Shown here: one piece after another, positions 2,705-64,000 of the stretch
How the letters are laid out: every line of letters starts with the position of its first letter
How positions within the stretch are numbered: the stretch's first letter is position 1
Assembly: GCA_037893245.1 (NCBI GenBank)
Contig: JBAIAA010000095.1
Location: 186,001-250,000, forward strand
DNA: 64,000 nucleotides
DNA from: Crossaster papposus
Taxonomy: Eukaryota > Echinodermata > Asteroidea > Velatida > Solasteridae
Direction of reading: 5' to 3'
The notes under the pieces: generated by a model
Databases searched by the model: none
Seen by the model: only the letters and a program-made list of their open reading frames with translations
What the model was told of the DNA's origin: nothing
Made by a program: the position numbers and the translations under genes

Positions 2705-3145
2705 TTTGCTCAAGTGTTTTTCTTGACCCCAACACTCCAGAATTCTCAAATTTAGTAGGTCGTCTAAATTACTGCATCAGTCTGAAGTTTTAGATGAACA
2801 GACGTCTAAATTGTAGGTCAGGTAGCCACTGGTGACACAATACATCATGACGCACTGCAGACACAGCTAGCTGTTTTTAGATGAATACAACAATTCAAAT
2901 TATAACGGCTTTTCCCCAAAAGGCACAATGCCTGCATTTTGATTTTTGCCATTGAATGCGAGCTTTGATTTCATGCAAACCAGAAAAAAAGAATCTGTTA
3001 ACCCTAACAACACTACAACAGTCCTCAATCCTCCAAAATCAATATGATTTTGCACACACACTAGATAGTTAGAGTTAATGGCATTATTTTGACATAGTTT
3101 ACTTCAAGTTTACTCCCGGAAACACTCGAACATTGCGACGGTTAA

Positions 3146-3350
3146 CCAGTTTGCACCGGAGGACGTATATACACTAAAGGTTTTCCCCAGACTCAGAACG
3201 GATGACGCATAAACAAGTCACGAGCAAGGCCGGAAAAGTCTGTCAGCAGTGAGTAAAGCAGGAAATGAATTCGCCTCGGATCGAGTTTCGTTAAATTATT
3301 CCCTCGCCTCGGCTCGGTGTTGGTGTTAAAATAATCCTGGCGCGAACTGG
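3146..3350. mobile_element. TTAA-inserting inverted-repeat element, old copy
   Basis: Flanked on both sides by TTAA (3142-3145 and 3351-3354). The ends are CCAGTTTGCACCGG and CCTGGCGCGAACTGG, matching the 234-bp family seen at 23229, but with more divergence and about 30 bases missing inside. TTAA duplication and short inverted ends are the hallmark of piggyBac-type cut-and-paste elements; with no coding capacity it is a MITE. The homologous gamma copies at 18189 and 30207 carry it too, so it inserted before the modules duplicated. Confidence 0.75.
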
Positions 3351-3775
3351 TTAATGATATAATTTGTACCTGCTTGACCATCAATAGATATTAAATATTC
3401 GGAAACCTTCGGACATTTCCAGAAATTTGGGCCGAGTTCGGGCGGTCCGTTCTTGACACGCGAACTCTGTTCTCGCGCTCGAACGGCGGGAACGCGACCC
3501 GTGAACATTGCACTCGGAACAAGAACACACACCACCTATCCACCAGGGTTTTGCAAGAACAAGTTACGCGTGTCAAGAATAGACCGCCCGAACTCGGCCT
3601 TGAGGACTGAATCTAGGACTCAGTAGAACACGCGACATGGCCTAATAATTCATAACAATTTAGCAAATTTTTGGGGTCCGGGAACCAGACTACTTTTTGT
3701 TGGCGGACTCTAGGAGAATTGTTTTAAGTACATTGTAGTAAATTAGTATATTAGTACATGTATAGTATTACTATG

Positions 3776-6488: not shown

Positions 6489-6911
6489 GTTGGATTAATT
6501 TTGGCAATGTTTTCTTATTATGTGACCTGGTACGTCAAAATCAGTCAAAGAGTCAATTTTGAGTTATCACATTTCCCGGCAAAAACTTGCTCTTTGAAAT
6601 GCCACTTTGCTCTTGTAAATATTTCAAAGCTAAGCTATTAAATGTTATCAATTCTAAACAAAATCTTGAACAAAGAGTCATTTTTGTGATAAATCTTGCG
6701 TCTCTAAAAGTGTTTAAAAATTCTTTTGGGATGAAATTTCAGTTTGCCATTTTGCAGCTGTTTCTCCATTCGTAGCTTAGCCCTGCTTGATTTTGGAATA
6801 CCACATTACATGTATACATGTATTGCTAACGTGCCATTACTTTGAGGGGAAGAGCTTTTACACCGGTCGCTCACCGAGATTGCCTTGCCCAATAAAGACC
6901 TTTCCACAGAT

Positions 6912-8501
<1,590 letters not shown>

Positions 8502-9060
8502 TTTGCTCAAGTGTTTTTCTTGACCCCAACACTCCAGAATTCTCAAATTTAGTAGGTCGACTAAATTACTGCATCAGTCTGAAGTTTTAGATGAACAGAC
8601 GTCTAAATTGTAGGTCAGGTAGCCACTGGTGACACAATACATCATGACGCACTGCAGACAGCTAGCTGTTTTTAGATAATACAACAATTCAAATTATAAA
8701 GGCTTTTCCCCAAAAGGCAAAATGCCTGCATTTTGATTGTTGCCATTGAATGCGAGCTTTGATTTCTTGCAAACCAGAAAAAAAGAATCTGTTAACCCTA
8801 ACAACACTACAACAGTCCTCAATCCTCCAAAATCGATATGATTTTGCACACACACTAGATAGTTAGAGTTAATGGCATTAATTTGACATAGTTTACTTCA
8901 AGTTTACTCCCGGAAACACTCGAACATTGCGACGGTTAACCAGTTTGCACCGGAGGACGTATACATACACTAGAGGTTTTGCGCAGACTTAGAACAGATG
9001 ACGCATAAACAAGTCACGAGCAAGGCCGGAAATGTCTGTTTGCAGCGAGTAAGGCAGGAA
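8502..9060. repeat. Module gamma, copy 2, truncated
   Basis: Only the gene-proximal 0.5 kb of gamma remains. At about 9060 it jumps from inside a TTAA element into the 3' flank of the next zinc-finger gene, so most of gamma, the lone-end segment and a whole module alpha are missing. The join falls at shared bases GGAAA. Confidence 0.75.
8940..9060. mobile_element. TTAA element, left part only
   Basis: Begins after TTAA (8936-8939) with CCAGTTTGCACCGG as in the 3146 copy. The right half is lost in the deletion that joins gamma to the 3' end of the gene at 9122. Confidence 0.7.
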
Positions 9061-15858: not shown

Positions 15859-16121
15859 GTTGGATTAATTGCCAGCACTAAGCATTTTGGCAATGTTTTC
15901 CATATGTAACCTGATACGTCAAAATCAGGCAAAAAGTCAATTTTGAGTTATCAAATTTCCCAGCAAAACCTTGCTCTTTCAAATGCCAATTTGCTCTTGT
16001 AATTATTCCAAAGCTAAGCTATTAAATTTTGAAATCTGTTAAATTTGTTGTCAATTCTGAACAAAATCTTGAACAAAGTGTCATTTTTGTAAAAAATCTT
16101 GCCTCTCTAAAAGTGTTTTAA

Positions 16122-16353
16122 CCAGTTCGCCTGGATTATTTTAACATCACCGAGCCGAGAGGCGGGATTATTTTTAACGAAACTCGATCTGAAGCGGGTT
16201 CAGGCCGATAGTGCCGGGAAGCACACCCACGCATTTCCGGCCTTGCTCGCTGCTGACAGACATTTCCGAACTTGAACTTGGCGTGTTTATGCGTCATTCG
16301 TTTTGAATTTGGGGAAAACTTTGCGTTTATATACGTCATCCGGCGCGAACTGG
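16122..16353. mobile_element. TTAA-inserting MITE, filled site in alpha
   Basis: A 232-bp element between TTAA at 16118-16121 and 16354-16357, with ends CCAGTTCGCCTGG and CCGGCGCGAACTGG. Sibling alphas at 6710, 21375 and 36247 have the empty site (GTGTTTAAAAA) at the same place, which proves insertion at TTAA. The copy at 26861 shares the site, so that pair descends from one event. Confidence 0.88.
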
Positions 16354-16580
16354 TTAAAAATACTTTTGGGATGAAATTTCAGTTTGCCATTTTGCAGCTG
16401 TTTCTCTATTCGTAGCTCAGCCCTGCCCGATTGTGGCATACCACGTTACATTACATGTACATGTATTGCTAACGTGCCATGTGGGTCCATTGATGTGCAG
16501 TCCCATTACTTTGAGGGAAAGAGCTTTTACACTGGTCGCTCACTCAGATTACCTTGCCCAATAAAGACTTTTCCACAGAT

Positions 16581-17744: not shown

Positions 17745-18188
17745 TTTGCTCAAGTGTTTTTCTTGACCCCAACACTCCAGAATTCTCAAATTTAGTAGGT
17801 CGACTAAATTACTGCATCAGTCTGAAGTTTTAGATGAACAGACGTCTAAATTGTAGGTCACTCAGGTAGCCACTGGTGACACAATACATCATGACGCACT
17901 GCAGACACAGCTAGCTGTTTTTAGATGATACAACAATTCAAATTATAACGGCTTTTCCTTAAAAGGCACAATGCCTGCATTTTAATTTTTGCCATTGAAT
18001 GCTAGCTTTGATTTCATGCAAACCAGAAAAAAAGAACCTGTTAACCCTAACAACACTACAACAGTCCTCAATCCTCTAAAATCAATATGATTTTGCACAC
18101 ACACTAGATAGCTAGAGTTAATGGCATTATTTTGACATAGTTTACTTCAAGTTTACTCCCGGAAACACTCAAACATTGCGACGGTTAA

Positions 18189-18404
18189 CCAGTTTGCACC
18201 GGAGGACGTATACACTAAAGGTTTTACCAGACTCAGAACGGATGACTTAGAACAGATGACGCATAAACAAGTCACGAGCAAGGCCGGAAATGTCTGTCAG
18301 CAGTGAGTAAAGCAGGAAATGAACTCGCCTCGGATCGAGTTTCGTTAAATTATTCCCTCGCCTTGGCTCGGTGTTGGTGTTAAAATAATCCTGGCGCGAA
18401 CTGG
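18189..18404. mobile_element. TTAA element, old copy in gamma
   Basis: TTAA at 18185-18188 and 18405-18408 with ends CCAGTTTGCACCGG and CCTGGCGCGAACTGG. Positional homologue of 3146-3350, with an extra direct repeat of GGATGACTTAGAACAGATGA inside. Confidence 0.75.
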
Positions 18405-18669
18405 TTAATGATATAATTAGTACCTGCTTGACCATCAATAGATAATATTCCGAAACCTTCGGACATTTCCAGAAATTTGAGGACTGAAACTAGGACTCAG
18501 TAGAACACACGACATGGCGGCTACCGAAAAATAGGCTTAATAATTCATAACAATTTAGCAAAATTTTGGGGTCTGGGAACCAGACTACTTTTTGTTGGTG
18601 GACTCTAGTAGGAGAATTGTTTTAAGTACATGTACATTTACTGTAGTAAATTAGTATATTAATACTATG

Positions 18670-21576: not shown

Positions 21577-23860
<2,284 letters not shown>

Positions 23861-26597: not shown

Positions 26598-26860
26598 GTT
26601 GGATTAATTGCCAGCACTAAGCATTTTGGCAATGTTTTCCATATGTAACCTGATACGTCAAAATCAGGCAAAAAGTCAATTTTGAGTTATCAAATTTCCC
26701 AGCAAAACCTTGCTCTTTCAAATGCCAATTTGCTCTTGTAATTATTCCAAAGCTAAGCTATTAAATTTTGAAATCTGTTAAATTTTTTGTCAATTCTGAA
26801 CAAAATCTTGAACAAAGTGTCATTTTTGTAAAAAATCTTGCCTCTCTAAAAGTGTTTTAA

Positions 26861-27093
26861 CCAGTTCGCCTGGATTATTTTAACATCACCGAGCCGAGGG
26901 GCGGGATTATTTTTTAACGAAACTCGATCTGAAGCAGGTTCAGGCCGATAGTGCCGGGAAGCACACCCACGCATTTCCGGCCTTGCTCGCTGCTGACAGA
27001 TATTTCCGAACTTGAACTTGGCGTGTTTATGCGTCATTCGTTTTGAATTTGGGGAAAACTTTGCGTTTATATACGTCATCCGGCGCGAACTGG
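26861..27093. mobile_element. TTAA-inserting MITE in alpha
   Basis: TTAA at 26857-26860 and 27094-27097, with the same target and orientation as 16122-16353 and only a few base differences, so the two alpha segments share the insertion by descent. Confidence 0.88.
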
Positions 27094-27253
27094 TTAAAAA
27101 AACTTTTGGGATGAAATTTCAGTTTGCCATTTTGCAGCTGTTTCTCCATTCGTAGCTCAGCACTGCCCGATTGTGGCATACCACGTTACATTACATGTGT
27201 ACATGTATTGCTAACGTGCCATGTGGGTCCATTGATGTGCAGTCCCATTATTA

Positions 27254-29769: not shown

Positions 29770-30206
29770 TTTGCTCAAGTGTTTTTCTTGACCCCAACAC
29801 TCCAGAATTCTCACATTTAGGCCGACTAAATTACTGCATCAGTCTGAAGTTTTAGATGTAACAGACATCTAAATTGTAGGTCAGGTAGCCACTGGTGACA
29901 CAATACATCATGACGCACTGCAGACACAGCTAGCTGTTTTTAGATGAAACAACAATTCAAATTATAATGGCTTTTCCCCAAAAGGCAAAATGCCTGCATT
30001 TTGATTTTTGCCCCTGAATGCGAGCTTTGATTTCATGCAAACCAGAAAAAAGAATCTGTTAACCCTAACAACACTACAACAGTCCTCAATCCTCCAAAAT
30101 CATTATGATTTTGCACACACACTAGATAGTTAGAGTTAATGGCATTAATTTGACATAGTTTACTTCAAGTTTACTCCTGGAAACACTCGAACATTGCGAC
30201 GGTTAA

Positions 30207-30413
30207 TCAGTTTGCACCGGAGGACGTATACATACACTAGAGGTTTTCCGCAGACTTAGAACAGATGACGCATAAACAAGTCACGAGCAAGGCCGGAAAT
30301 GTCTGTCAGCTGTGAGTAAAGCAGGAAATGAACTCGCCTCGGATTGAGTTTCGTTAAATTATTCCCTCGCCTTGGCTCGGTGTTGGTGTTAAAATAATCC
30401 TGGCGCGAACTGG
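30207..30413. mobile_element. TTAA element, old copy in gamma
   Basis: TTAA at 30203-30206 and 30414-30417. Homologue of 3146-3350 and 18189-18404. Confidence 0.75.
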
Positions 30414-30652
30414 TTAATGATATAATTAGTACCTGCTTGACCATCAATAGATAATATTCGGAAACCTTCGGACATTTCCAAAAATTTGAGGACTGAATCT
30501 AGGACTCAGTAGAACACGCGACATGGCCTAATAATTCATAACAATTTAGCAAATTTTGGGAGTCTGGGAACCAGACTACTTTTTGTTGGTGGACTCTAGG
30601 AGAATTGTTTTAAGTACATTGTACTGTACTAGTAAATTAGTATATTACTATG

Positions 30653-32029: not shown

Positions 32030-32930
32030 ACTGACCATTAGTTGACCAGTGGCCAAATTAATTAGATCAAGGCTGTGGGAGAAGCATTTCGTTATTTTGA
32101 CAAAAAATGACCCCTACTGACCATTAGGTGACCACTGGTCAAATTCTGTGAACAACTTTTACGAGTTAATTAGATCAAGGCTGTGGGAGAATCATTTCGT
32201 TATTTTGAAAAGAAAATTACCCCTACTGACCATTAGGTGACCAATGGCCAAATTTTGACCCCTACTGACCATTAGGTGACCATTGGCCAAATTAATTAAA
32301 CCAAGACTGTGGGAGAAGAAGCATTTCGTAATTTTGAAGAAAATGACCCCTGCTGACCATTAGGTGACCACTGGCCAAATTCTGTGAACAACTTTTACGA
32401 GTTAATTAAATCAAGGCTGTGGGAGAAGCATTTCGTTATTTTGAAAGGAAAATGACCCCTACTGACCATTAGGTGACCAATGGTCAAATTCTGACCCTTC
32501 TGACCATTAGGTGACCATTGGCCAAATTAATTGGACCAAGACTGTGGGAGAAGAAGCATTTCGTAATTTTAAAGAAAATGACCCCTGCTGACCATTAGGT
32601 GACCATTGGCCAAATTATCGGTGTACACCCTATATGAGGCTTGGTCCAGATATATAACTGACCAAGTTTGACATGAATTGGATCAAAACTTTGGGAGAAG
32701 CAGCATTTCCTAATTTTGAAGAAAATGACCCCTACTGACCATCTGGTGACCACTGGCCAAATTCTGTGAACAACTTTTATGAGGCATGGTCCAGAGATGT
32801 AACTGGCCAAGTTTGACAATAATTGGACCAAGACTGTGGAAGAAGTAGCATTTTGTATTTTTAAAGAAAATGACCACTAGTGACCACTAGGTGACGTTTG
32901 ACCACACCTGCTGATCACTACAGATAGAAC
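32030..32930. repeat. Tandem repeat with TGACC half-site pairs
   Basis: About nine diverged units built on CCCCTACTGACCATTAGG, then TGACCACTGGCCAAATT, alternating with longer units containing GACCAAGACTGTGGGAGAAG and CATTTCGTAATTTTGAA. Unit length alternates between about 60 and 120 bases. No frame is conserved through it. Confidence 0.8.
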
Positions 32931-36447: not shown

Positions 36448-38373
36448 CTAACAAACAAATGGTTTCTCACTGGTGTGAATCATTTCATGTCTCTTTAGGT
36501 TAGATTGATTTGAAAAAGATTTACCACAGGTCTCACAAACAAATGGTTTTTCACCAGTGTGAATCCTCTCATGTCCTTTAAGATGACTTCGTGTAGTAAA
36601 AGCTTTTCCACAGGTCTCACAAACAAATGGTTTCTCACCAGTGTGAATCCGCATATGTTCTTTAAGATTCGGTCGGTGAGTAAAGGATTTACCACAGGTC
36701 TCACAAACAAATGATTTCTCACCAAAGTGAATCCTCTCATGTATTTTGAGACTACTTTGTCGAGTAAAAGCTTTACCACAGGTCTCACAAACAAACGGTT
36801 TTTCACCAGTGTGAATCCTCTCATGTTCTTTAAAATGACTTCGTGTAGTAAAAGCGTTACCACAGATCTCACAAACAAATGGTTTCTCACCAGTGTGAAT
36901 CCTCTCATGTCCTTTAATATGACTTCGTGTAGTAAAAGCTTTACCACAGGTCTCACAAACAAATGGTTTCTCACCAGTGTGAATCCTCTCATGTTCTTTA
37001 AGATGACTTCGTGTAGTAAAAGCGTTACCACAGATCTCACAAACAAATGGTTTCTCACCAGAGTGAATTCTGTCATGTTTCTTTAAATCATGTCTTGTAG
37101 TAAAAGCTTTCCCACAGGTTTCACAAACAAACGGTTTCTCACCAGTGTGAATCCTCTCATGTTCTTTAAGATGACTTCGTTGAGTAAAAGCTTTACCACA
37201 GGTTTCACAAACAAATAGTTTCTCACCAGTGTGAATCCTCTCATGTCCTTTAAGATGACTTTGTTGAGTAAAAGCTTTACCACAGGTCTCACAAACAAAT
37301 GGTTTATCACCAGTATGAATCCTGTCGTGAATCTTTAAACCATTTTGGAATGTAAACGCTTTCCCACAGGTTTCACAAACAAATGGTTTCTCACCAGTGT
37401 GAATCCTCTCATGTTCTTTAAGATGACTTCGTTGAGTAAAAGCTTTACCACAGGTCTCACAAACAAATGGTTTCTCACCAGAGTGAATTCTGTCATGTTT
37501 CTTTAAATAATGTCGTGTAGTAAAAGCTTTCCCACAGGTTTCACAAACAAACGGTTTCTCACCAGTGTGAATCCTCTCATGTTCTTTAAGATGACTTCGT
37601 TGAGTAAAATCTTTACCACAGGTTTCACAAACAAATAGTTTCTCACCAGTGTGAATCCTCTCATGTCCTTTAAGATGACTTTGTTGAGTAAAAGCTTTAC
37701 CACAGGTCTCACAAACAAATGGTTTCTCACCAGTATGAATCATGTCGTGCATCTTTAAACCATTTTGGAATGTAAACGCTTTCCCACAGGTTTCACAAAC
37801 AAATGGTTTCTCACCAGAGTGAATCCTTTCATGTTCTTTAAGTTTATTTCGTTGAGTAAAAGCTTTACCACAAGTCTCACAAACAAACGGTTTCTCACCA
37901 GAGTGAATCCTCTCATGTTCTTTAAGATTACTTCGTTGAGTAAAAGCTTTACCACAGGTCTCACAAACAAATGGTTTCTCAGCAGAGTGAATCCTCTTAT
38001 CATGTTTCTTTAGACTACTTCGGCGTGTAAAACCTTGTCCACAGGTCTCACAAACAAACAGTTTCTCACCAGTGCAAACCCTCTCATGTTCCTTTGGATC
38101 ACGTTGTCGAGTAAAAGCTTTACCACAGGTCTCACAAAAAAATGGCTTCTCACCAGTGTGAATCCTCTCATCATGTCCCGTAAGATGACTCCGTGTAGTA
38201 AAAGCTTTACCACAGGTCGCACAAACAAATAATTTTTCACCAGTGTGAATCCTCTCATGTTCTTTAACTTTAAGATGACTTAATTTGGTAAAAGCTTTAC
38301 CACAGGTCTCACAATTAAGTAAAGGTTTCTCTTCCTTGTTGACCCTCTGGTGGTCATGTGTTCTTGTGTCCAT
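36448..38373 (-). CDS. C2H2 zinc-finger protein, type B, 22 fingers
   Basis: A complete 641-residue frame, [20 protein letters not shown], 22 fingers and SEKPFVC. The frame is open a further 45 codons upstream to an ATG at 38508 (MHQSRRDLKRVACS). Finger 1 reads KLSHLKVKEH: two extra residues where the DNA has TTAACTTTAA in place of TTAA (38264-38273). Fingers 2 and 4 have one extra residue before the last His (HDERIH, HDKRIH), and finger 3 ends HERVC (His to Cys). A four-finger block FQNGLK-QQSHLKG-QRSHLKE-TRHxLKK is repeated. The upstream fingers match 21577 and 53108. Expected nuclear DNA-binding protein. Confidence 0.86.
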   Translation of the reverse strand: MDTRTHDHQRVNKEEKPLLNCETCGKAFTKLSHLKVKEHERIHTGEKLFVCATCGKAFTTRSHLTGHDERIHTGEKPFFCETCGKAFTRQRDPKEHERVCTGEKLFVCETCGQGFTRRSSLKKHDKRIHSAEKPFVCETCGKAFTQRSNLKEHERIHSGEKPFVCETCGKAFTQRNKLKEHERIHSGEKPFVCETCGKAFTFQNGLKMHDMIHTGEKPFVCETCGKAFTQQSHLKGHERIHTGEKLFVCETCGKDFTQRSHLKEHERIHTGEKPFVCETCGKAFTTRHYLKKHDRIHSGEKPFVCETCGKAFTQRSHLKEHERIHTGEKPFVCETCGKAFTFQNGLKIHDRIHTGDKPFVCETCGKAFTQQSHLKGHERIHTGEKLFVCETCGKAFTQRSHLKEHERIHTGEKPFVCETCGKAFTTRHDLKKHDRIHSGEKPFVCEICGNAFTTRSHLKEHERIHTGEKPFVCETCGKAFTTRSHIKGHERIHTGEKPFVCEICGNAFTTRSHFKEHERIHTGEKPFVCETCGKAFTRQSSLKIHERIHFGEKSFVCETCGKSFTHRPNLKEHMRIHTGEKPFVCETCGKAFTTRSHLKGHERIHTGEKPFVCETCGKSFSNQSNLKRHEMIHTSEKPFVC

Positions 38374-38988
38374 TTTGTTGCAGTGTTTAGGCCGATGAAT
38401 TACTACATCAGTCTGTACCATACGTCTCAACAGATTGCTTGAGCGTGTGTTAGCGTCGTCGTCAGTGCTGCACGCTACTCTCTTCAAGTCTCTCCTTGAT
38501 TGATGCAATTAGGAAAAATAACACTCCTGTCACCAGGGCCAATCACAAACAAAACTGTTGCCATTGGTCGGAGTTAAAATAAAAACTGGAAAATCTTGTT
38601 TGTGATTGGTCTAGTACGTCATATTTGCTAATTAATAGTAGTAATAAACTCACCAGTGTATGTTGTGCTACGACCCCACAATCTGCAGAAAGATCTTGTA
38701 CTAAGTTGTAGTCAATTAAATTCAGACAGCCTCGCCAGAATTGTCTCAGTCAGTACAGCCTATTAAAGAAGAGAAAGTGAAATGGGGCGAGTTGGTAAGG
38801 GGCAAGTCGCCCAGTTGACCTATAGCCTAGGCCGAGTAATTTTTGTCACTGTAAACCAGTTAAGCCGTGTACGTTGAGGCATTGGAGAAATAATTCTTAA
38901 TCATTCTCCTCCCATCCCATCCCCCCCACCCCCCCCCCCCCCCCCCCCCCCCCCTTCCCCGAGTCCGTCCCATGCTGCTGCGCGCCAT
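38374..38988. repeat. Module delta, copy 3 (first part)
   Basis: Shortened delta: the left-end-like TTAACCATTTAGCG block is missing, and it runs straight to AGTTGTAGTCAATT and a C run (about 38923-38954). The rest of delta resumes after a stack of insertions, at 39880-40190 and 46388-46530. No gene seen. Confidence 0.6.
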
Positions 38989-41748: not shown

Positions 41749-43932
41749 CAATCAGCACTTGCGAGTGTTCATGAGGTCAGTGGTGCTTGCGTTCCATCCA
41801 ATGAACTGTCGGCACTGTACCTTGGCTTGTTGTTATTCGTAATAAGGCCTGGCATACGATATACATGATTATTCTAATTATTAGTATATACACGCCCTCC
41901 TCCCGCTGGTGACTGACACGCCAGGGGTGCGTTCCACTCCAGCGAACGTTGCCAACGTTGGCCAACGTTAGCGTTGTTCGCGTGAGTGGAACGCAATGTG
42001 CGCCAACTATGTTGGCCAACGTTAGCGAAAACGGCGAACGACATTCCGAGCTGTTTGCTGTTGGCCAGTGACGTATTTGCGGTTAGCAGACGGCAGGGTT
42101 CTTTTCACGGTTTTTATTTACGTTTTATACTTTTCGTTATAAACGGTGGATTGTTTTGAGCATTCACAGGGATCTTTTAAAGAAAAATAATGAGTTGGAC
42201 AAAAGCAGCGAACCAAACGATGTCACTTTCACTGGGCGCCGCCATTTTGAAAACGTAGTTTTTAAAATATCGTTCCACTTCAACTAACGCCAACTCAAAA
42301 CGTTGGCGAACGTTCGCGCAAACAGTTCGCGTAAGTAGGGTTCTTGCGTTTTAGACCGTCAATAACCGTCCTACGCAAGCCCAGCCAATCAGCACTTGCG
42401 AGTGTTCATGAGGTCAGCGGTGCTTGCGTTCCATCCAATGAACTGTCGGCACTGTACCCTAGCTTGTTGTTATTCGTAATAAGGCCTGGCATACGATATA
42501 CATGATTATTCTAATTATTAGTATATACACGCCCTCCTTCCGCTGGCGACTGACACTCCAGATGTTTACAATGGCGCTTACAATGACGCCCGGCCCGCTT
42601 CTATTGTTAAAAGGTTCAATGGGATACGTACATGTACCGTATACATGGCGGGAATTTCAATGGGGTATTTTCAACATGCGGGTTGTAATTGAGAGGATCA
42701 AACCACTTTAAATGCAGGGAACACACAGGCCTGGTAATCACTTACACAAAGTATGGGGTATATAAACCAGCTTCCAGAGGGGGTGTTTGTCCCTAATGAA
42801 TATTAGTGCCGTCCACGCAAATTTTTTTATTACCGTCAGAGGTACCAAAACGCGGATGCCTTAAACTGGTGTATTCCATTTCCACCCCAGAGATAGAAAA
42901 GGGGTATATTAACTCTCACATCAGAACCCATAAACGTGCACCGTGACCCACCCCCAAACATAACGTAAAATGGGGCAACTTTGTCATGCTGGGTAACTTT
43001 GGCCACTACATGCAAAAAACAATCTTTTGTTGATGATTTTACTTGTATTTTTGGACATGGTTTTTATTATTTATGTAAATGATCAAAAAAAGAGTTGAAA
43101 AATAACATCCAACTGGATTTTATGTGATATTTTAGAAATGTTTGTCCCCAAACGATCTGACCAAAGTTACCCTAACCCTGAATTTCCTTTAATGAGTATA
43201 AAACGTACAATACGCTTCCGGAAAATTATTTAACTCATTGTGTGTAACGAGGGCAATCGTCAATTTTAGCTTTTCAGAAAATTCTGGTGTGTTTAAGATA
43301 TCAAATCGATTTTTATTTGTATTTTGTTTGTGTGCAAACGGATTTTATTTACGGTCAAAAAATGTTTGTTGGCTCAAACTCAACTCTATTGTAAAACATA
43401 ACACGGAAAATATAACATTATTGTTTAATATGCAAAAATATATTCTAAATTGTCTGAAAATATTGACCAAGGTTTCCCATTTTACGGTACAATGTCCACC
43501 AAACTGATACTGCGTAAGCAACGAGCAGTCGTTCGTGTTCCCTGCAATTGAAATGGTTTGATCCTGACAACCTGCATGTTGAAAATACCATTGAAATTCC
43601 CGCCACGTACGTATCCTATTGTACCTAGCCTTGTAACAATAGAAGCAGGGATCAGTCCTTGCAAACGCCATTGTCCAGGTACATATCTGGCGTGTTGGTC
43701 ACGCGACCAGCGGGGGGAGGGTGTGTCTACTTATGATTATAATAATCATGTAGATCGTGTGCCAGACCTTATTATGAATAACAATAAGCTACGGTACAGT
43801 CCCAATAGTTCATTGGATGGAACGCAAGCCCCGCTGATCGCACGAACACTCGCATGTGCTGATTGGCTAGTCTTGCGTACAACGGTAATTTACGGTCTAA
43901 AACGCACGAACTCTACTGGAACGCACCCCTGA
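41749..43932. mobile_element. CAGGGGTGCG element with long inverted arms, copy 2
   Basis: Starts with CAATCAGCACTTGCGAG...GACTGACAC (41749-41929), then a second CAGGGGTGCGTTCCACT start at 41930, the same CAATCAGC block at 42384-42556, a middle of about 1.1 kb, and the inverse of the block (43700-43932) ending AGTGGAACGCACCCCTG-like. Inner arms are also inverted (TTTCAACATGCGGGTTG near 42670, its inverse near 43565). The middle carries AATGGGGCAACTTTG, has a weak 89-residue frame at 43238-43507 and no known domain. Confidence 0.55.
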
Positions 43933-45203
43933 TGTGTACAATGGCGCTTACAATGCAATGACGCCCGGTCGGCTTCTATTGTTAAACGGTTCAATGGGAT
44001 ACGTATGTACATGTACTGTACATGGCGGGAATTTCAATAGGGTATTTTCAACATGCGGGTTGTAATTGTGAGGATCAAACCACTTTAAATGCAGGAAACA
44101 CATAGGCCTGGTAATTACTTACACCAAGTATAGAGTATATAAACCAGCTTCCAGAGGGGATGTTTGTCCCTAATAATTATTAGTGCCGTCCACGCAAAAA
44201 ACTTTTTTGTATTACCGTCAGACATACCAAAACGCGGATGCCTTAAGTTAACTGGTGTATTCTATTTCCACCCCAGAGATAGAAAAGGGGTATATATTAA
44301 CTCTCACATCAGAACCAATAAACGTGCACCGTGACCCACCCCCAAACATAACGTAAAATGGGGCAACTTGTTCATGTTCAAAAAACAATCTTTTGTTGAT
44401 GATTTTACTTGTATTTTTGTATTTGGTTTTTATTATTTATGTAAATAAGAGTTGAAAAATAACATCAAACTGGATTTTATGTGATTTTTTTAGAAAGGTT
44501 TTTCCCCAAACGATCTGACCAAAGTTGCCCTAACCCTGAATTTCTTTAAATGATTATAAAACGTACAATACGCTTCCGGAAACTTATTCAACTCATTGTG
44601 TTTAAAAAGGGCAATCGTCAATTTTAGCTTTTCAGAAAATTCTGGGGTGTTTGAGCAATCGAATGGATTTTTATTTGTAGTTTTTTTGTGTGCAAACGGA
44701 TTTTGTTTACGGTCAAAAATGTTTGTTGGCTCAAACCCAACTCTATTGTAAAACATAACACGGAAAATATAACATTATTGTTTAATATGCAGAAAATATT
44801 TGTAAATTGTCTGAAAATATTGACTAAGGTTTCCCATTTTACGGTACAATGTCCACCACACTGACTGCGTGAGCAACGAGCAGTCGTTCGTGTTCCCTGC
44901 ATTTAAATGGTTTGATCCCGACAACCTGCATGTTGAAAGTACATGTACATATCTGTCGTGTCAGTCATGCGACCGGGGGGGGGGGGGGGGGGGGGTGTAT
45001 ACTAATGATTATAATAATCATGTAGATCGTATGCCAGACCTTATTATGAATAACAATAAGCTACGGTACAGTCCCAATAGTTCATTTGATGGAACGCAAG
45101 CACTGCTGACCTCACGAACACTCGCATGTGCTGATTGGCTAGTCTTGCGTACAACGGTAATTTACGGTCTAAAACGCACGAACTCTAGTGGAACGCACCC
45201 CTG
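43933..45203. repeat. Tandem duplicate of the element middle plus right arm
   Basis: Repeats 42557-43932 head to tail (about 85-90 percent alike by eye), ending at the same CACCCCTG. A G run of about 20 bases lies at 44977-44996. Confidence 0.7.
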
Positions 45204-47730: not shown

Positions 47731-48891
47731 CTAACAAACAAATGGTTTCTCACCAGTGTGAATCCTCTCATGTTCTTTAATAAGATAACTTCGTTTAGTA
47801 AAAGCTTTACCACAGGTCTCACAAACAAACGGTTTCTCACCAGTGTGAATCCTGTCATGTTCTTTAGGAAGACTTCGATTAGTAAAAGCTTTACCACAGG
47901 TCTCACAAACAAATGGTTTCTCACCAGTGTGAATCCTCTCATGTTCTTTAAGATGACTTCGTGTAGTAAAAGCGTTACCACAGATCTCACAAACAAATGG
48001 TTTCTCACCAGTGTGAATCCTCTCATGTCCTTTAAGATGACTTCGTGTAGTAAAAGCTTTACCACAGGTCTCACAAACAGATGGTTTCTCACCAGTGTGA
48101 ATCCTCTCATGTTCTTTAAGATTATGTCGGTGAATAAAGGATTTTCCACAGGTCTCACAAACAAATGGTTTCTCACCAGTGTGAATCCTCTTATGTCCTT
48201 TAAGATGACTTCGTGTAGTAAAAGCTTTCCCACAGGTTTCACAAACAAATGGTTTCTCATTAGTGTGAATCCTCTCATGTTCTTTAAGATGACTTCGTTG
48301 AGTAAAAGCTTTACCACAGGTTTCACAAACAAATGGTTTCTCACCAGAGTGAATTCTGTCATGTTTCTTTAAATCATGTCGTGTAGTAAAAGCATTACCA
48401 CAGGTCTCACAAACAAACGGTTTCTCACCAGTGTGAATCCTCTCGTGTTCTTTAACATGACTTCGTTGAGTAAAAGCTTTACCACAGGTTTCACAAACAA
48501 ATGGTTTCTCACCAATGTGAATCCTCTCATGTTCTTTAAGATAACTTCGTTGAGCAAAAGCTTTACCACAGGTTTCACAAACAAATGGTTTCTCACCAGT
48601 GTGAATCCTCTCATGTCCTTTAAGACGGCTTCGTTTAATAAAAGCTTTACCACAGGTCTCACAAACAAAAGGTTTCTCACCAGTGTGAATCCTCTCATGT
48701 TCTTTAAGATTACTTTGTTGAGTAAAAACTTTACCACAGGTCTCACAAACAGATGGTTTCTCACCAGTGTGAATCCTCTCATGTCCTTTACGATGACTTC
48801 GATTAGTAAAAGCTTTACCACAGGTCTCACAATTAAGTAAAGGTTTCTCTTCCTTGTTGACCCTCTGGTGGTCAGGTCTTCTTGTGTCCAT
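47731..48891 (-). CDS. C2H2 zinc-finger protein, type B, 13 fingers
   Basis: A complete 386-residue frame: [20 protein letters not shown], 13 fingers, ending TGEKPFVC at the shared stop. Helices are NRSHRKG, QQSNLKE, KRSRLKG, QRSYLKE, QRSHVKE, TRHDLKK, QRSHLKE, TRSHLKG, HRHNLKE, TRSHLKG, TRSHLKE, NRSLPKE and KRSYLIKE. The last finger has one extra residue (LIKEH) from a TAA inserted at its TTAA (47777-47783). It lacks the final SQSNLKK/NQSNLKR finger of the siblings. Finger 12 has Pro in the helix (LPKEH). Frame open upstream for about 34 further codons. Nuclear DNA-binding protein expected. Confidence 0.84.
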   Translation of the reverse strand: MDTRRPDHQRVNKEEKPLLNCETCGKAFTNRSHRKGHERIHTGEKPSVCETCGKVFTQQSNLKEHERIHTGEKPFVCETCGKAFIKRSRLKGHERIHTGEKPFVCETCGKAFAQRSYLKEHERIHIGEKPFVCETCGKAFTQRSHVKEHERIHTGEKPFVCETCGNAFTTRHDLKKHDRIHSGEKPFVCETCGKAFTQRSHLKEHERIHTNEKPFVCETCGKAFTTRSHLKGHKRIHTGEKPFVCETCGKSFIHRHNLKEHERIHTGEKPSVCETCGKAFTTRSHLKGHERIHTGEKPFVCEICGNAFTTRSHLKEHERIHTGEKPFVCETCGKAFTNRSLPKEHDRIHTGEKPFVCETCGKAFTKRSYLIKEHERIHTGEKPFVC

Positions 48892-50541
48892 TTTGTTGCA
48901 GTGTTTAGGACGATGAATTACTACATTAGTCTGTAACATACGTCTCAACAGATTGCTTGACGAGCGTGTGTTAGTGTCGTCACCAGTGCTGTATGCTACT
49001 CTCTTAAGTCTCTCCTTGACTCAAGATTCCAGACAGGACTCTGCTGTCAGTGTCTCACCGATGAAAGCCTGTGTTAAAACACAAGCAAATAATGTGCTTC
49101 ACTACACCTTTGGACCATAGCTACAAGGAATGTTTTAACCATTTAGCGCCAGGTTTATTTTCAAGTCACCGAGACCACTGGCGGGATTATTTTTCATTGA
49201 AAATGATATAATTTCATTTCAACAGAGAACGCAGGAACAGACTTTAACTTATGCAATGACGATATTATGTGCAAAAAAATCATGACAATTGTCTATTGAT
49301 GTTCCAGATACATGAAATTATATCATTTGTTGAACTAACTGAAATGAACCAAACCAGAAGCCTATCTATTAAAAAGTATTATTGATCCATTTTAGTGTAA
49401 ATAAAAGAAGCTCTCGCAAAAATATTTGTCAAAGGACTATCGCGTCATTACATTATTGTGTCATATCATATTCAAACATGTTGATGCATTGACAGCTCCC
49501 GTGGAAAAGCCATTTTTACACATACTCGCTAAAAATAGGAATATCTCCAAAAATATTAATGCAATATCTTCCCTATTTTTACCAATATTGCTCAACGATA
49601 TATGCTTTAATAATATCCAAACCAAATTACTAAAATATTTTATTATCCAGGAGAAAATGGCCTCCAAAGTTGGGTATAGTTTTTTTTGGACCACCCTGTA
49701 TATTCACGTCCACCGCTGTGTATGCCATACATGTCAGTCGTGTATACCTGTCCACTGCAGTGCTAGCGGGTAGCTTTTGGCATAAATACATGTCAACCTC
49801 AACAACGAAGGTAACTTTTGCAGCGGAATTCAACTGCTGTGCCGGACAAATTAACGCGTCATCTGTGGATAGTAAACAATTTTGTCGGGCCTAGCTCGGG
49901 ACGTATTCGCGTTCGTTTTTGAATCTCGGAATTTTTTGTCAAATATGTATACGTCCTGCGGCACTATTCTGGTTAATTTCTAGAAAAGTTTACCAAAATT
50001 ACAACAAAATTAGGAAAAATAATGCTCCAGTCACCAGGGCCAGACACAAATAAAATTGTATTGGCCGGAGTTGAAATAAAAACTGGAAAATCTTGTTTGT
50101 GATTGGTCTAGTAATGGTATGGGTCAATGTTGGCAATGTCTGCTACATGCACATGTAATTAACTCACCAGTGTACGTTGTGCTACGACCCCACAATCTGC
50201 AGAAAGATCTTGTACTAAGTTGTCGTCAATTCAATTCAGACAGCCTCGCCAGAATTGTCTCATAGTACAGCCTAATGAAGAGAAAGTGAAATGGGGCGAG
50301 TTGGTAAGGGGCAAGTTGGTAAGGGGCAAGTCGGCCAGTTGTCCTAGCCTAGGCTATAGGCCGAATAATAATGTTGGTCACGGCATGGAGCTCGAGTTGA
50401 GCCGTGTACGCCAAGAGGAATTGGAGAAATAATTCTTAATTATCACTATACCAATTTGTATATGTCGCGTTTATAAGCGCATTTTACAAACTGCAAGGTC
50501 TCAGGCTACCTACCTGATGAAAATAACGGCAAAACTACGAG
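48892..50541. repeat. Module delta, copy 4
   Basis: Contains TTAACCATTTAGCGCC (49135), an insert at about 49200-49700 not in the other deltas (with the inverted pair ATGATATAATTTCAT near 49204 and 49313, and a mariner-like right end AGTTTTTTTTGGACCACCCT at 49678), a conserved short frame (49790-49894), then a unique copy of GGGGCAAGTTGGTAA in tandem near 50300. No other gene. Confidence 0.6.
49790..49894 (+). CDS. Short conserved open frame MSTSTTKVTF, copy 2
   Basis: 34 residues, MSTSTTKVTFAAEFNCC, then QINASSVDSKQFCRA. See 24720. Unknown function; possibly not coding. Confidence 0.25.
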   Translation: MSTSTTKVTFAAEFNCCAGQINASSVDSKQFCRA

Positions 50542-52604: not shown

Positions 52605-53107
52605 TTAATAAACTAAGTTGGATTAATTGCCAGCACTAAGCATTTTGGCAATGTTTCCCATATGTAACCTGATACGTCAAAACCAGGCAAAAAGTCAATT
52701 TTGAGTTATCACATTTCCCAGCAAAACCTTGCTCTTTCAAATGCCAATTTGCTCTTGTAATTATTCCAAAGCTAAGCTATTACATTTTGAAATCTGTATT
52801 TTTTTTGGTCAATTCTGAACAAAATCTTGAACAAAGTGTCATTTTTGTGAAAAATCTTGCCTCTCTAAAAGTGTTTTAAAAATACTTTTGGGATAAAATT
52901 CCAGTTTGCCATTTTGCAGCTGTTTCTCCATTCGTAGCTCAACCCGCCTGATTTTGGCATACCACATTACATGTATATGTATACATGTATTGCTAACGTG
53001 CTGTGTGGGTTCATTGATGTGTAGTTCCATTACTTTGAGGGGAAGAGCTTTTACACTGGTCGCTCATCACCGAGATTGCCTTGCCCAATAAAGACTTTTC
53101 CACAGAT

Positions 53108-54944
53108 CTAACAAACAAATGGCTTCTCACTGGTGTGAATCATTTCATGTCTCTTAAGGTTAGATTGACTTGAAAAAGCTTTACCACAGGTCTCACAAAC
53201 AAATGGTTTCTCACCAGTGTGAATCCTCTCATGTTCTTTAAGATAACTTCGTTTAGTAAAAGCTTTACCACAGGTCTCACAAACAAATGATTTCTCACCA
53301 AAGTGAATCCTCTCGTGTATTTTGAGACTACTTTGTCGAGTAAAAGCTTTACCACAGGTCTCACAAACAAACGTTTTTTCACCAGTGTGAATCCTCTCAT
53401 GTTCTTTAAGATGACTTCGTGTAGTAAAAGCGTTACCACAGATCTCACAAACAAATGGTTTCTTACCAGTGTGAATCCTCTCATGTCCTTTAAGATGACT
53501 TTGTGTAGTAAAAGCTTTACCACAGGTCTCACAAACAAATGGTTTCTCACCAGTGTGAATCCTCTCATGTTCTTTAAGATGACTTCGTGTAGTAAAAGCG
53601 TTACCACAGATCTCACAAACAAATGGTTTCTCACCAGAGTGAATTCTGTCATGTTTCTTTAAATCATGTCGTGTAGTAAAAGCTTTCCCACAGGTTTCAC
53701 AAACAAACGGTTTCTCACCAGTGTGAATCCTCTCATGTTCTTGAAGATGACTTCGTTGAGTAAAAGCTTTACCACAGGTTTCACAAACAAATAGTTTCTC
53801 ACCAGTGTGAATCCTCTCATGTCCTTTAAGATGACTTTGTTGAGTAAAAGCTTTACCACAGGTCTCACAAACAAATGGTTTCTCACCAGTATGAATCCTG
53901 TCGTGCATCTTTAAACCATTTTGGAATGTAAACGGTTTTCCACAGGTTTCACAAACAAATGGTTTCTCACCAGTGTGAATCCTCTCATGTTCTTTAAGAT
54001 GACTTTGTTGAGTAAAAGCTTTACCACAGGTCTCACAAACAAATGGTTTCTCACCAGAGTGAATTCTGTCATGTTTCTTTAAATAATGTCGTGTAGTAAA
54101 AGCTTTCCCACAGGTTTCACAAACAAACGGTTTCTCACCAGTGTGAATCCTCTCATGTTCTTTAAGATGACTTCGTTGAGTAAAAGCTTTACCACAGGTT
54201 TCACAAACAAATAGTTTCTCACCAGTGTGAATCCTCTTATGTCCTTTAAGATGACTTTGTCGAGTAAAAGCTTTACCACAGGTCTCACAAACAAATGGTT
54301 TCTCACCAGTATGAATCCTGTCGTGAATCTTTAAACCATTTTGGAATGTAAACGCTTTCCCACAGGTTTCACAAACAAATGGTTTCTCACCAGAGTGAAT
54401 CCTTTCATGTTCTTTAAGTTTATTTCGTTGAGTAAAAGCTTTACCACAAGTCTCACAAACAAACGGTTTCTCACCAGAGTGAATCCTCTCATGTTCTTTA
54501 AGATTACTTCGTTGAGTAAAAGCTTTACCACAGGTCTCACAAACAAATGGTTTCTCAGCAGAGTGAATCCTCTTATCATGTTTCTTTAGACTACTTCGGC
54601 GTGTAAAACCTTGTCCACAGGTCTCACAAACAAACAGTTTCTCACCAGAGCAAACCCTCTCATGTTCCTTTAGATCACGTTGTCGAGTAAAAGCTTTACC
54701 ACGGGTCTCACAAAAAAATGGCTTCTCACCAGTGTGAATCCTCTCATCATGTCCCGTAAGATAACTTCGTGTAGTAAAAGCTTTACCACAGGTTGCACAA
54801 ACAAATAATTTTTTCACCAGTGTGAATCCTCTCATGTTCTTTAAGATGACTTAGTTTGGTAAAAGCTTTATTACAGGTCTCACAATTAAGTAAAGGTTTC
54901 TCTTCCTTGTTGACCCTCTGGTGGTCAGGTCTTCTTGTGTCCAT
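53108..54944 (-). pseudogene. Type B C2H2 zinc-finger gene, 21 fingers, one frameshift
   Basis: [20 protein letters not shown] and finger 1 (KLSHLKEH) are normal. Then at about 54809-54814 a T run one base longer than in the sibling at 38231 shifts the frame inside the second finger, so a protein from the usual start would end after about 53 residues. Beyond it 20 fingers remain open to SEKPFVC. Finger 2 keeps CATC; finger 3 has CETR (second zinc Cys lost) and ends HERVC. The rest parallels 36448-38373 finger by finger, including the repeated FQNGLK block. Either a recent pseudogene, a sequencing error in a T run, or translation from a downstream start. Confidence 0.8.
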
Positions 54945-55737
54945 TTTGTTGCAGTGTTTAGGCCGATGAATTACTACATCAGTCTGTACCATACGTCTCA
55001 ACAGATTGCTTGAGCGTGTGTTAGCGTCGTCACCAGTGCTGCATGCTACTCTCTTAACCAGTTCGCGCCGGGATTATTTTAACAACGCCGAGCCGACGGG
55101 CGGGATTATTTTTAACGAAACTCGATCCGAAGCGTGTTCAGGCTGATAGTGCCGGGAAGCACACCCACGCATTTCCGGCCTTGCGCGCTGCTGACATACA
55201 TTTCCGAACTTGAACTTGGCGTGTTTATGCGTCATCCGTTTTGAATTTTGGGAAATTTTTGCGTTTATATATGTCATCCGGCGTGAACTGGTTAAGTCTC
55301 TCCTTGATTGATGCAATTAGGAAAAATAACACTCCTCCTGTCACCAGGGCCAATCACAAACAAAACTGTTGCCATTGGTCGGAGTTAAAATAAAAAATGG
55401 AAAATCTTGTCTGTGGTTGGTCTAGTATGGTATGGGTCAATGTTGGCAATGTCTGCTAATTAACTCACCACTGTACGTTGTGCTACGACCCCACAATCTG
55501 CAGAAAGACCTTGTACTAAGTTGTAGTCAATTCAATTCAGACAGCCTCGCCAGCATTGTCTCAGTCGGTACAGCCTAAAGAAGAGAAAGTGAAATGGGGC
55601 GAGTTGGTAAGGGGAAAGTCGCCCAGTTGACCTATACTAGCCTAGGCCGAGTAATTTTTGTCACTGTAAACCAGTTAAGCCGTGTACGTTGAGGCATTGG
55701 AGAAATAATTCGTAATCATTCTCCTCCGATCCTCTCC
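54945..55737. repeat. Module delta, copy 5, cut short
   Basis: Conserved 5' flank with a TTAA element at 55058-55291, then the short form of delta as in copy 3, ending where a Penelope-like element begins. No gene. Confidence 0.65.
55058..55291. mobile_element. TTAA-inserting MITE in the type B 5' flank
   Basis: 234 bp between TTAA at 55054-55057 and 55292-55295. The empty site CTCTCTTAAGTCTCTCC is present at 23841 and 48999. Ends CCAGTTCGCGCCGGG and CCGGCGTGAACTGG. It lies about 110 bases upstream of the start codon, so it is in the leader or promoter of the gene at 53108. Confidence 0.9.
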
Positions 55738-57880
55738 GTCCAACTCCCCGTACTGTGAACCAGGTACAGCTCAGCCAAGATCTCACGAAAAGGTATCGGA
55801 GGATTCGTCTCCGTGAGTTTTTTCTTGATTCCGACCCTTGTGACCCAGAACCCTTCCGTGTCAAGAGCGCATGGGTACCCCCCAAGAATCGTGTACCAGC
55901 CCTTAAACGTATGTTCAAGTTGTCAATACCCAAGTCACTAACCCTGGTAACTTTCCCCACAGGACCCATGATAACCTCCCCAGAGAAGAGCGCCTTGCAC
56001 TTTTGCTTTGCGTTCTCGTACTGACATCATCATCAAGCCAGCTGATAAAGGGTCAGCCGTGGTCATCATGGATCGTCAGCAGTACATCGACGAGGCCCAC
56101 GGCCAGTTGGACAACCGTACTAACTACATGTATATCTGCCTCGACTCTGATCCCACAGGTACATTTTCTCGAGAGATACAGCAGTTGCTTGAGGACATGC
56201 GATCACGTGACCAACTGTCAAAGAAAGCTTACAAATTTCTTTTACCAACTGACTGTAGAACTGCTAGGTTCTATCTTCTAAGATTCACAAGACTGGTAAC
56301 CCTGGTAGACCCATCGTCTCGGGTAATGGGTCACCCACGGAACACATCTCCCTGTTTATTGGCAGTTTTCTTAAACCCCTTGTCCCTAGGATTCCATCAT
56401 ACATCCATGACACCCCAGACTTCTTGTGCAAGCTCGAAGGAATCAAAGACCAGATTCCCAGAACGGCCACCATTGGGACGTTTTATGTCTCATCCTTGTA
56501 CGCCAACATACCACATGAAGAAGGTATTCTTGCCTGTTCCATTACCATAGCTAGGGCAGGACGCACGACCCCTCCCATAACTGACATTCGCTCCCTCATG
56601 AAACTTGTACTAACGAATTAATTTTTTCTTCCTAGAAAAGCACTATCTACAGATATATGGCACTGCAATGAGTACTCGCATCGCACCCTCCTTTGCATGC
56701 CTCTTCATGGGCGACCCAGAGGAACTAATGCTTGCCTCAGCACCGTGCCGTCCCTGGATCTGGTGGAGATACATTTATGATGTATTTTTCATCTGGACCA
56801 GTGATGAGGACAGTCTGCTGACTTTCACTTATCACATGAATTGCTTCCACAGGACCATCAAGTTCACATCAGAGTACTCACATCATCAGGCCCAATTCCT
56901 GGATATCACCATCCACAGGGAGGATAACCTAATAACCATTGATATGTATTCTAAATACACAGACACACACCAGTATCTCCACTCCTCCAGCTGTCACCCT
57001 ATGCATTGTAAGTCTCGTATAGCATTTAGTCATCAGGCCCTCAGACTCAAAAGGATTTGTTTTAACGACGATGATTTCTCCCGCCATTCACAGATACTGA
57101 AGAATAACTTGGTTGCCAGTGGTCACAGCTCCCACCAAGTTCAACGTGCCATTGCCAAAGCCAAAGCCAAAGCCGTACCCAGAAATTTGGCTCTAAAGGT
57201 AAAGGCCCCCCAGGCTGATGCCAAAACCTAGAGTAAGACCCCCCCCCCCCCCCTGGTGACTACCTTTCACCCCAGTCTCCCTTCTCTCGCAAAATCACTA
57301 ACGACAGCCATCACATTCTCCACACTTCAGATCGCTTTGTCCGTGCCATCCCAGACAGCCCTGTATTGGCTTATAGATCGACGCCCTCGTAATCTACGAG
57401 ACCTCCTTGTTCGAGCCAAAGTTCCCTGCTTGGATGCATCTCCTCCCATCCAGCACGGAACTTTCAAGTGCAGTTCCAGATGTGTGGTTTGCCAGATCCA
57501 CATCCAGGAGTCGGACTCCTTTTCTGGCCACTCTTCTAGTACCACCCATAGAATTATTGGTAACATCACTTGTAGTACATCTAATGTCATATATCTCATC
57601 TCTTGCAGGTTTTGTGGAGTTCATTATGTCAGAGAGACCAAACATGGATACCCCCGTCAGTCATCACTTCAACCAGCCTAACCATTGCATTTCTGATATG
57701 ATTCTACAGGGCATAGAATCACTTGGCCATCGGAAAGACATCATAAAAATGTTTTGACCTCAAACAAATTGCAACAAACATTTTTTTTCACCACGATGCA
57801 TTTCTAAAAGTCAACACAATGACATATTAATGAAATATTAAGATCTTGTTAAGATCGAAATATTAGGCCCCCTTTAATTT
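55738..57880 (+). mobile_element. Penelope-like retroelement fossil, copy 1
   Basis: Parts in order: N-terminal region (LTKRYRRIRLREFF), reverse-transcriptase start (IIKPADKGSAVVIMDRQQYI), mid-RT (SLYANIPHEEGI), later RT (YIYDVFFIW in place of the YxDD box; DTHQYLHSSSCHP), and a terminal zone with CVVCQ and VIYLISCRFC, as in the linker and GIY-YIG endonuclease. The 3' end has a GATCTT...AAGATC hairpin followed by GAAA. It is broken, with several disruptions. It replaces module alpha before the gene at 58124. Confidence 0.85.
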
Positions 57881-57889
57881 ATTTGATTT

Positions 57890-62146: not shown

Positions 62147-64000
62147 GTCCAACTCCCCGTACTGTGAACCAGGTACAGCTCAGCCAAGATCTCACGAAAA
62201 AGTATCGGAGGATCCGTCTCCGTGAGTTTTTTCTTGATTCCGACCCTTGTGACCCAGAACCCTTCCGTGTCAAGAGCGCATGGGTACCCCCCCCCCCCCC
62301 AAGAATCGTGTACCAGCCCTTAAACGTATGTTCAAGTTGTCAATACCCAAGTCTAACCCTAGTAAATTTCCACACAGGACCCACAGGCCCGTAAGACACT
62401 TTTTTCAAAGGGGGTGCGTTTTCAACAACAACAAAAAAGTCAAAAAAAAAAATTTTCTTCGGAAACACGCTCATTCTCTTATTTTAATGTTCCATTATGG
62501 TGTCATAGTTTACCTTTCTTGTTGGTCGGAGCACAGAAATACCGGAAGTAGTTTTTGACATGATTCTACAACAATCTTAACAACCTTCCACCACCAGTCC
62601 GTTGACGAGTTGCAGCGTGTGATCACGTGACAAAACATGGTCACGTGTGTAAATAAGTGTACAAGGAAATGAGAAAACACCGTTTATTTCCCTTCTATCC
62701 TTTTAATTCCAAGTCGTGATTTGCATAAATAGACTAAGTAACACCGTTATGTCAGATTATTGTTGCAAAACCATGTCTTAATCAGTACTAAAAATCCGGG
62801 TTAAAAATCAACTGTCGTAGCAACACTAAAGCACATGTCCGTTCGTGCATAATAAGTATGCGCAGTAGTCTGTTTGCGCATTAATGACGTCAGCCTAGCC
62901 CTTAGTTGGAACTTTGAGGAACATTGTAGCAAATGCATAAATGGTGTTAGGAAGTTACAATGGATCAAACTGTAGAGACTACTACAAACTGTAGTTGCTT
63001 AAGTCAATTAGGTTCTTTGACAAATCATTTCAGAATTGAGCAAAATCAAATGAGATCAGAGTAGCATTTTTCAGTATTGTATTCTGCTTTACTTATGTTT
63101 GAACTAGTAAGTCACACAGTATTGGTATAGGTATTCTTGTTTACTACAAGCTAGCCTACTATTATTTGAAACTAAGAAAAACGCAATTTTTACCTTAAAA
63201 AAAAAACAAAAAAAACCAAAGATTTTCAAAGGGGGGGCGTTCGCAACCGTCGCCCCCCCCCATCTGACGGGCCTGACCCATGATAACCTCCCCAGAGAAG
63301 AGCGCCTTGCACTTACTGCTTTGCGTTCTCGTAATGACATCAAGCCAGCTGATAAAGGCTCAGCCGTGGTCATCATGGATCGTCAGCAGTACATCGACGA
63401 GGCCCACGGCCAGTTGGACAACCGTACTAACTATATCTGCCTCGACTCTGATCCCACAGGTACATTTTTTCGAGAGAGACAGCAGTTGCTTGATGACATG
63501 CGATCACGTCACCAACTGTCAAAGAAAGCTCACAAATTTCTTTTACCAACTGACTGTAGAACTGCTAGGTTCTATCTTCTAAGATTCACAAGACTGGTAA
63601 CCCTGGTAGGCCCATCGTCTCGGGTAATGGGTCACCCACGTAACACATCTCCCTGTTTATTGGCAGTTTTCTTAAACCCCTTGTTGTCCCTAGGATTCCA
63701 TCATACATCCGCGACACCCCAGACTTCCTGTGCAAGCTCGAAGGAATCAAGGACCAGATTCCCAGAACGGCCACCATTGGGACTTTTTATGTCTCATCCT
63801 TGTACGCCAACATACCACATGAAGAAGGTATTCTTGCCTGTTTCATTACTATAGCTAGGGCAGGACGCACGACCCCTCCCATAACTGACATTCGCGCCCT
63901 CATGAAACTTGTACTCACAAATTAATTTTTACTTCCTAGAAAAGCACTATCTACAGATATATGGCACTGCAATGGGTACTCGCATGGCACCCTCCTTTGC
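62147..64000 (+). mobile_element. Penelope-like retroelement fossil, copy 2, running off the window
   Basis: Same 5' boundary and parts as copy 1 (N-terminal region, KPADKGSAVVIMDRQQYI). It is interrupted by a CAGGCCCG DNA transposon at 62394-63275. It is broken, with several disruptions, and continues past the right edge of the window. Confidence 0.83.
62394..63275. mobile_element. CAGGCCCG-ended DNA transposon with perfect 5-bp TSD
   Basis: 882 bp; ends CAGGCCCGTAAGACAC and ATCTGACGGGCCTG; flanks ACCCA (62389-62393) and ACCCA (63276-63280). The uninterrupted site is in the sister element at 55960. About 0.5 kb is the inverse of 12500-13138 in the 2.2-kb relative, but the middle differs. 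No transposase frame. Confidence 0.85.

Follow-up and report, generated by a model that had tools for sequence, protein, structure and literature searches.

A TTAA-CT-TTAA insertion in a zinc-finger gene of Crossaster papposus: short tandem duplication weighed against transposon excision

Introduction

Transposons of the piggyBac class duplicate their TTAA target, have inverted ends of 12-19 bp and carry a CC[C/T]T terminal motif, according to the portion of PMC2872659 cited here, which also puts on record imprecise excision with retention of TTAA copies. Their excision normally produces complementary 4-nt TTAA overhangs that are rejoined seamlessly (cited passages of PMC7351741 and PMC3952818). 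Kolobok elements likewise duplicate TTAA; their ends are given as RR...YY in the relevant part of PMC9587614 and as AG in that of PMC6004289. Short tandem duplication, as a class of event, is already known: most short insertions in primates and flies have a tandem template (PMC2374710, in the section used here), and 134 of 151 insertions in human coding sequence are tandem duplications (PMC2151769, likewise). As in these collections, the insertion described below is a perfect adjacent copy of a few bases, and, like short tandem duplications, it is confined to one of two close copies. It differs from the published cases in that two events here share one TTAA tetranucleotide of a repeated unit.

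We analyzed a stretch of 64,000 nucleotides from Crossaster papposus (GCA_037893245.1, contig JBAIAA010000095.1, positions 186,001 to 250,000), hereafter the window, whose own numbering is used throughout. A first-pass annotation of its sequence had proposed that one TTAA site within a zinc-finger helix occurs in three states: filled by an element in gene 21577, bearing an excision footprint in gene 36448, and empty in gene 53108 (Table 1).

Results

The insertion in gene 36448 and its relatives

The + strand of gene 36448 reads TTAA (38264-38267), CT (38268-38269) and TTAA (38270-38273), ATGTTCTTTAACTTTAAGATGAC being the window sequence that spans 38264-38273; the six-base insertion is thus present as annotated, and so is the plain CTTTAAG of 53108. 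On the coding strand 36448 has CATC TTAAAG TTAAAG AACATG, versus CATC TTAAAG AACATG in 53108. In the alignment to the 84-bp unit consensus the inserted six bases are identical to the next six, and the + strand alignment of the paralogues also gives a perfect 6-bp tandem duplication. Both marks of a short tandem duplication are therefore seen, an insert identical to adjacent sequence and a single copy in relatives (one copy in 53108, the relatives being the paralogues in the window). The filler CT equals the host bases just before TTAA; its first base alone matches an end of the element in 21577, whose ends are CC...GG. No other unit in the alignment of ten arrays carries the insertion. The 36448 ORF contains 20 matches to C-x2-C-x12-H-x3-5-H, and the finger with the insertion, having x14, lies outside these 20. 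Judging from the motif, finger 1 of 36448, changed from x12 to x14, probably no longer folds normally.

Genes 36448 and 53108 are 98.1% identical over 1808 aligned bases, and their alignment has three gaps: an array gap at 36604 (at least 40 bases), one T, and the 6-bp insertion. The block downstream of the site is 98.8% identical between them, and they are 96.9% and 96.3% identical to 21577 there, respectively. From these block identities, and from the absence of the insertion in the closest copy, we infer that it is younger than the 36448/53108 split and represents the derived state. The extra T of 53108, at 54809 (an A in an A-run on the coding strand), puts finger 1 of that gene out of frame with its later fingers. 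The upstream half of the finger is similar in 36448 and 53108 but different in 21577, where the finger is third, with two more ahead of it, rather than first. Homology to 21577 is therefore secure on the downstream side only, while 36448 and 53108 can be compared cleanly across the site. The annotation of one site in three genes accordingly holds for the shared downstream half, but not for the upstream half or for the rank of the finger.

Table 1. Features of the window discussed in the text
Feature	Position	Strand	Remarks
Zinc-finger ORF, gene 36448	36448..38508	-	686 aa, stop to stop
6-bp tandem duplication	38262..38273	-	+ strand [CTTTAA][CTTTAA]; coding strand [TTAAAG][TTAAAG]; helix of finger 1 gains two residues; counted as +6 (38273) at helix TTAA
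Empty state CTTTAAG, gene 53108	54839..54845	-	closest paralogue of 36448
Filled state, gene 21577	23225..23466	.	234-bp TTAA element 23229-23462 and its two TTAA copies
5-bp tandem duplication, second TTAA-n-TTAA	7798..7807 (motif 7799-7807)	-	+ strand [CTTAA][CTTAA]; counted as +5 (7807) at helix TTAA
3-bp TTA tandem duplication	47777..47783	-	same helix position; coding TTATTAA; counted as +3 (47783) at helix TTAA
+3, ATG			away from TTAA; common to three genes
+3, ATA			away from TTAA; common to three genes
+1, A in A-run	54814 and 7436 (two genes)		away from TTAA
+9	9308		away from TTAA
+4	58019		away from TTAA
-2, AG lost	58187		away from TTAA
-1	57964		away from TTAA
-34	57926		away from TTAA
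+3, TCA duplication	53064		away from TTAA; just beyond last finger of 53108 array
Related element (A55059)	55054-55295		just upstream of 53108 gene
Related elements (A16120/A26860)	16118-16357, 26857-27097		one shared insertion site
Second element subfamily	3142-3354, 18185-18408, 30203-30417

The element in gene 21577 and related elements

The 234-bp element annotated in 21577 was confirmed, with TTAA on both sides (at 23225 and 23463). Its ends, 18 bp each (14 bp plus TTAA), are 100% complementary, and the upstream reading frame of 21577, having passed through two complete fingers and some of the next, terminates within it. The element resembles piggyBac-type elements in its TTAA duplication and in its short inverted CC...GG ends, whose length falls in the 12-19 bp range; unlike them, its ends begin CCAG rather than CC[C/T]T. 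With Kolobok it has the TTAA target duplication alone in common, the 5'-RR/YY-3' ends of that class being absent from it, and a Kolobok identity was set aside on this disagreement of end sequences. In its target duplication and its CC...GG ends the element is thus closer to piggyBac than to Kolobok, and we regard it as a putative piggyBac-like TTAA element. Sola3, which we take to be another TTAA class, was also considered. Among ten window ORFs scanned against Pfam none matched a transposase: eight had no match of any kind, and the other two, which are zinc-finger proteins, matched 34 families each, zinc-finger families leading among the best 25 of the 34. A viral collection yielded one match to the 18-base element end (L001, within a long ORF on a contig whose gene content is phage-like), which we consider a chance match, and the one exact 29-base linker pattern searched had 0 matches in that collection and 0 in the genome collection.

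Two other element sites could be compared with their empty copies, and none of the 12 copies listed (five for A55059, seven for A16120/A26860, none for the second subfamily) reads TTAA-n-TTAA. Of the A55059 empties, 23764 and 48921 are plain CTTAAG. Two additional bases stand ahead of TTAA at 9898, and the sequence is TCAAG at 38403 and 59178, which are longer by one and four bases; putative small gains beside TTAA do therefore occur at this site. All seven A16120/A26860 empties retain TTAA within a T-run and an A-run, five of them with one base fewer. The point that matches the A55059 site in the closest copy (~38484) reads TTCAAG, and two other paralogues have TTAAG there. Single ends that resemble TTAACCAGTTCGCGCC or TTAACCAGTTTGCGCC and run on into TGGTGTC or GGGTGTC occur at 25873, 46529, 51608, 5763, 15215, 20422 and 61649, and perhaps belong to a longer related element.

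Length changes inside the finger arrays

By our reading of the array and paralogue alignments, the arrays have undergone 13 independent changes in length, three at the helix TTAA and ten elsewhere. This count leaves aside compensated one-base shifts, differences common to array starts or ends, the end-of-array gap at 57887, the element, and variation in repeat length along the flank strips past the fingers. The first-pass annotation had set small indels occurring equally often away from TTAA against its own proposal; such indels are indeed frequent, but TTAA is over-represented among the array changes when these are counted per base. It had also looked to further TTAA-n-TTAA cases at fingers, and one was found: at 7799-7807 the coding strand reads TTAA-G-TTAA, a perfect duplication of TTAAG that puts the following fingers of gene 6911-8573 in another frame. 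Its filler C (7803) fits the host flank or the first base of the element alike. The TTA duplication at 47783 was rejected as evidence of excision, being like a TAA duplication at a TTAA outside the arrays (4941). Most likely the 6-bp duplication and its 5-bp and 3-bp counterparts at this helix position all belong to one type of event.

The helix target is itself common: the 175 well-matched units of the same ten arrays (element cut out) contain 134 TTAA at position 46 or 47 of the unit. Across the whole window, TTAANNTTAA has 8 occurrences against a shuffle mean of 4.35 (8 reached in 9 of 100 shuffles), TTAANTTAA has 4 (mean 4.00; observed count reached in 59 of 100) and TTAATTAA has 2 (mean 3.07; reached in 81 of 100), and the motif itself is therefore not rare.

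Length changes outside the arrays

As an outside control, 217 gap records between paralogous flanks (3-12 bp, local identity of 85% or more) were collapsed into 75 indel loci, in which gains and losses are mixed. Perfect tandem duplications account for 18 of them, 10 being of at least 4 bp, and one of these 10 (31092) directly adjoins a TTAA. By the definition used in our script, none of the 75 loci is a TTAA-n-TTAA, though seven have TTAA at the empty junction. That definition misses one of these seven, at 44243-44251, where TTAAGTTAA stands against TTAAA in the duplicated segment near 42861 (a 4-bp net difference). This difference, which is not a perfect duplication and may be a gain or a loss, was not accepted as an extra scar, and the locus was kept among the 75.

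Duplications of at least 4 bp that copy the helix TTAA make up 2 of 2 inside the finger units versus 0 of 10 outside the arrays, a split expected once in 66 by Fisher's test, computed post hoc on two events. Another 6-bp duplication, ATGTAT at 52971 in a flank strip, belongs to neither set; counting it as outside gives 1 in 78. Under uniform placement the two events have probabilities of 0.0217 (5-bp) and 0.0382 (6-bp), about 0.0008 jointly, again post hoc and from two events.

Discussion

We interpret the six bases, with a probability of roughly 0.82, as a short tandem duplication of TTAAAG that arose in 36448 when local copying or end joining went wrong; the insertion is most likely of an ordinary and very common kind. 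TTAAAG would have been duplicated within the codons that specify the recognition helix of finger 1 after 36448 split from 53108, either by polymerase slippage or by fill-in joining of a staggered break, and such a step would require no visit by a transposon. The tandem duplications among the outside loci imply that the process runs in this region, and small length changes also occur in the arrays away from TTAA. Slippage, which the first-pass annotation had named as the alternative to excision, thus belongs to the class of explanation that we favor. In its classical form, on a pre-existing repeat, it is unavailable, since at the junctions of the 5-bp and 6-bp duplications no homology extends past the repeat (left shift 0 in both). 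Against a simple duplication stand the restriction of both larger array duplications to the helix TTAA, the share of tandem duplications outside (18 of 75), which is lower than in the cited parts of PMC2374710 and PMC2151769, and the difference at 44243-44251, which is not a perfect duplication.

The proposed footprint, in which a TTAA element entered finger 1 of 36448 and imperfect repair left both TTAA copies and two filler bases, is disfavored. An element of the appropriate class does sit at the equivalent helix position of the sister gene 21577, but there the finger is the third and diverges in its upstream half. The second TTAA-n-TTAA, with a filler that is possibly the first base of the element, and, if it is a gain, the difference at 44243-44251 are also in line with excision. 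With random filler, 3 of 16 two-base and 2 of 4 one-base cases would look like a tandem duplication, so that the perfect form of the duplication is by itself compatible with a footprint. The filler in 36448 has the sequence of the host flank, however, and unlike what a piggyBac excision product might carry, CT is not the terminal sequence of the element. TTAATTAA, which would be expected from filled 4-nt overhangs, occurs at 32292 and 32402 only, both outside the arrays. The closest copy, 53108, is empty, and a footprint would therefore require at least two unseen events; the empty copies of the two other element sites and the usually seamless excision of piggyBac also argue against it. We keep it as an unlikely reading because retained TTAA copies are on record and because of the mild, post hoc excess at TTAA. 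Wilson 2007 is reportedly the source for such imprecise excision; a narrow combined literature search for imprecise piggyBac excision with small insertions at TTAA yielded no papers. In a broader version, which we find equally doubtful, TTAA elements would repeatedly enter the helix TTAA and some would leave imprecisely, both TTAA copies and one or two flank-templated bases staying behind and editing finger length, with 38264-38273 and 7799-7807 as scars.

Far less probable still is a misaligned exchange between fingers, for instance of an HVKEH with an HLK finger at a six-base offset, as the source of the two extra codons. An HVKEH finger does exist in the ORF 47731-49020, and the different upstream half of the finger in 21577 indicates that finger order has been reshuffled. 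Exchange of 84-bp units should nevertheless keep the register, and the flanks of the insertion match 53108 on both sides, so that no donor switch is seen.

Were the footprint real, a normally seamless class of transposon would leave in-frame scars in DNA-binding fingers. If instead the insertion is a tandem duplication, as we favor, local duplication can mimic a footprint wherever the target tetranucleotide occurs in the majority of repeat units, and calling a scar should therefore await a comparison of the filler bases with the host flank and with the ends of the element.

Elsewhere in the window, two ORF stretches without a Pfam match (55975-57231 and 63111-63854) look reverse-transcriptase-like by eye and are, we presume, perhaps Penelope-like.
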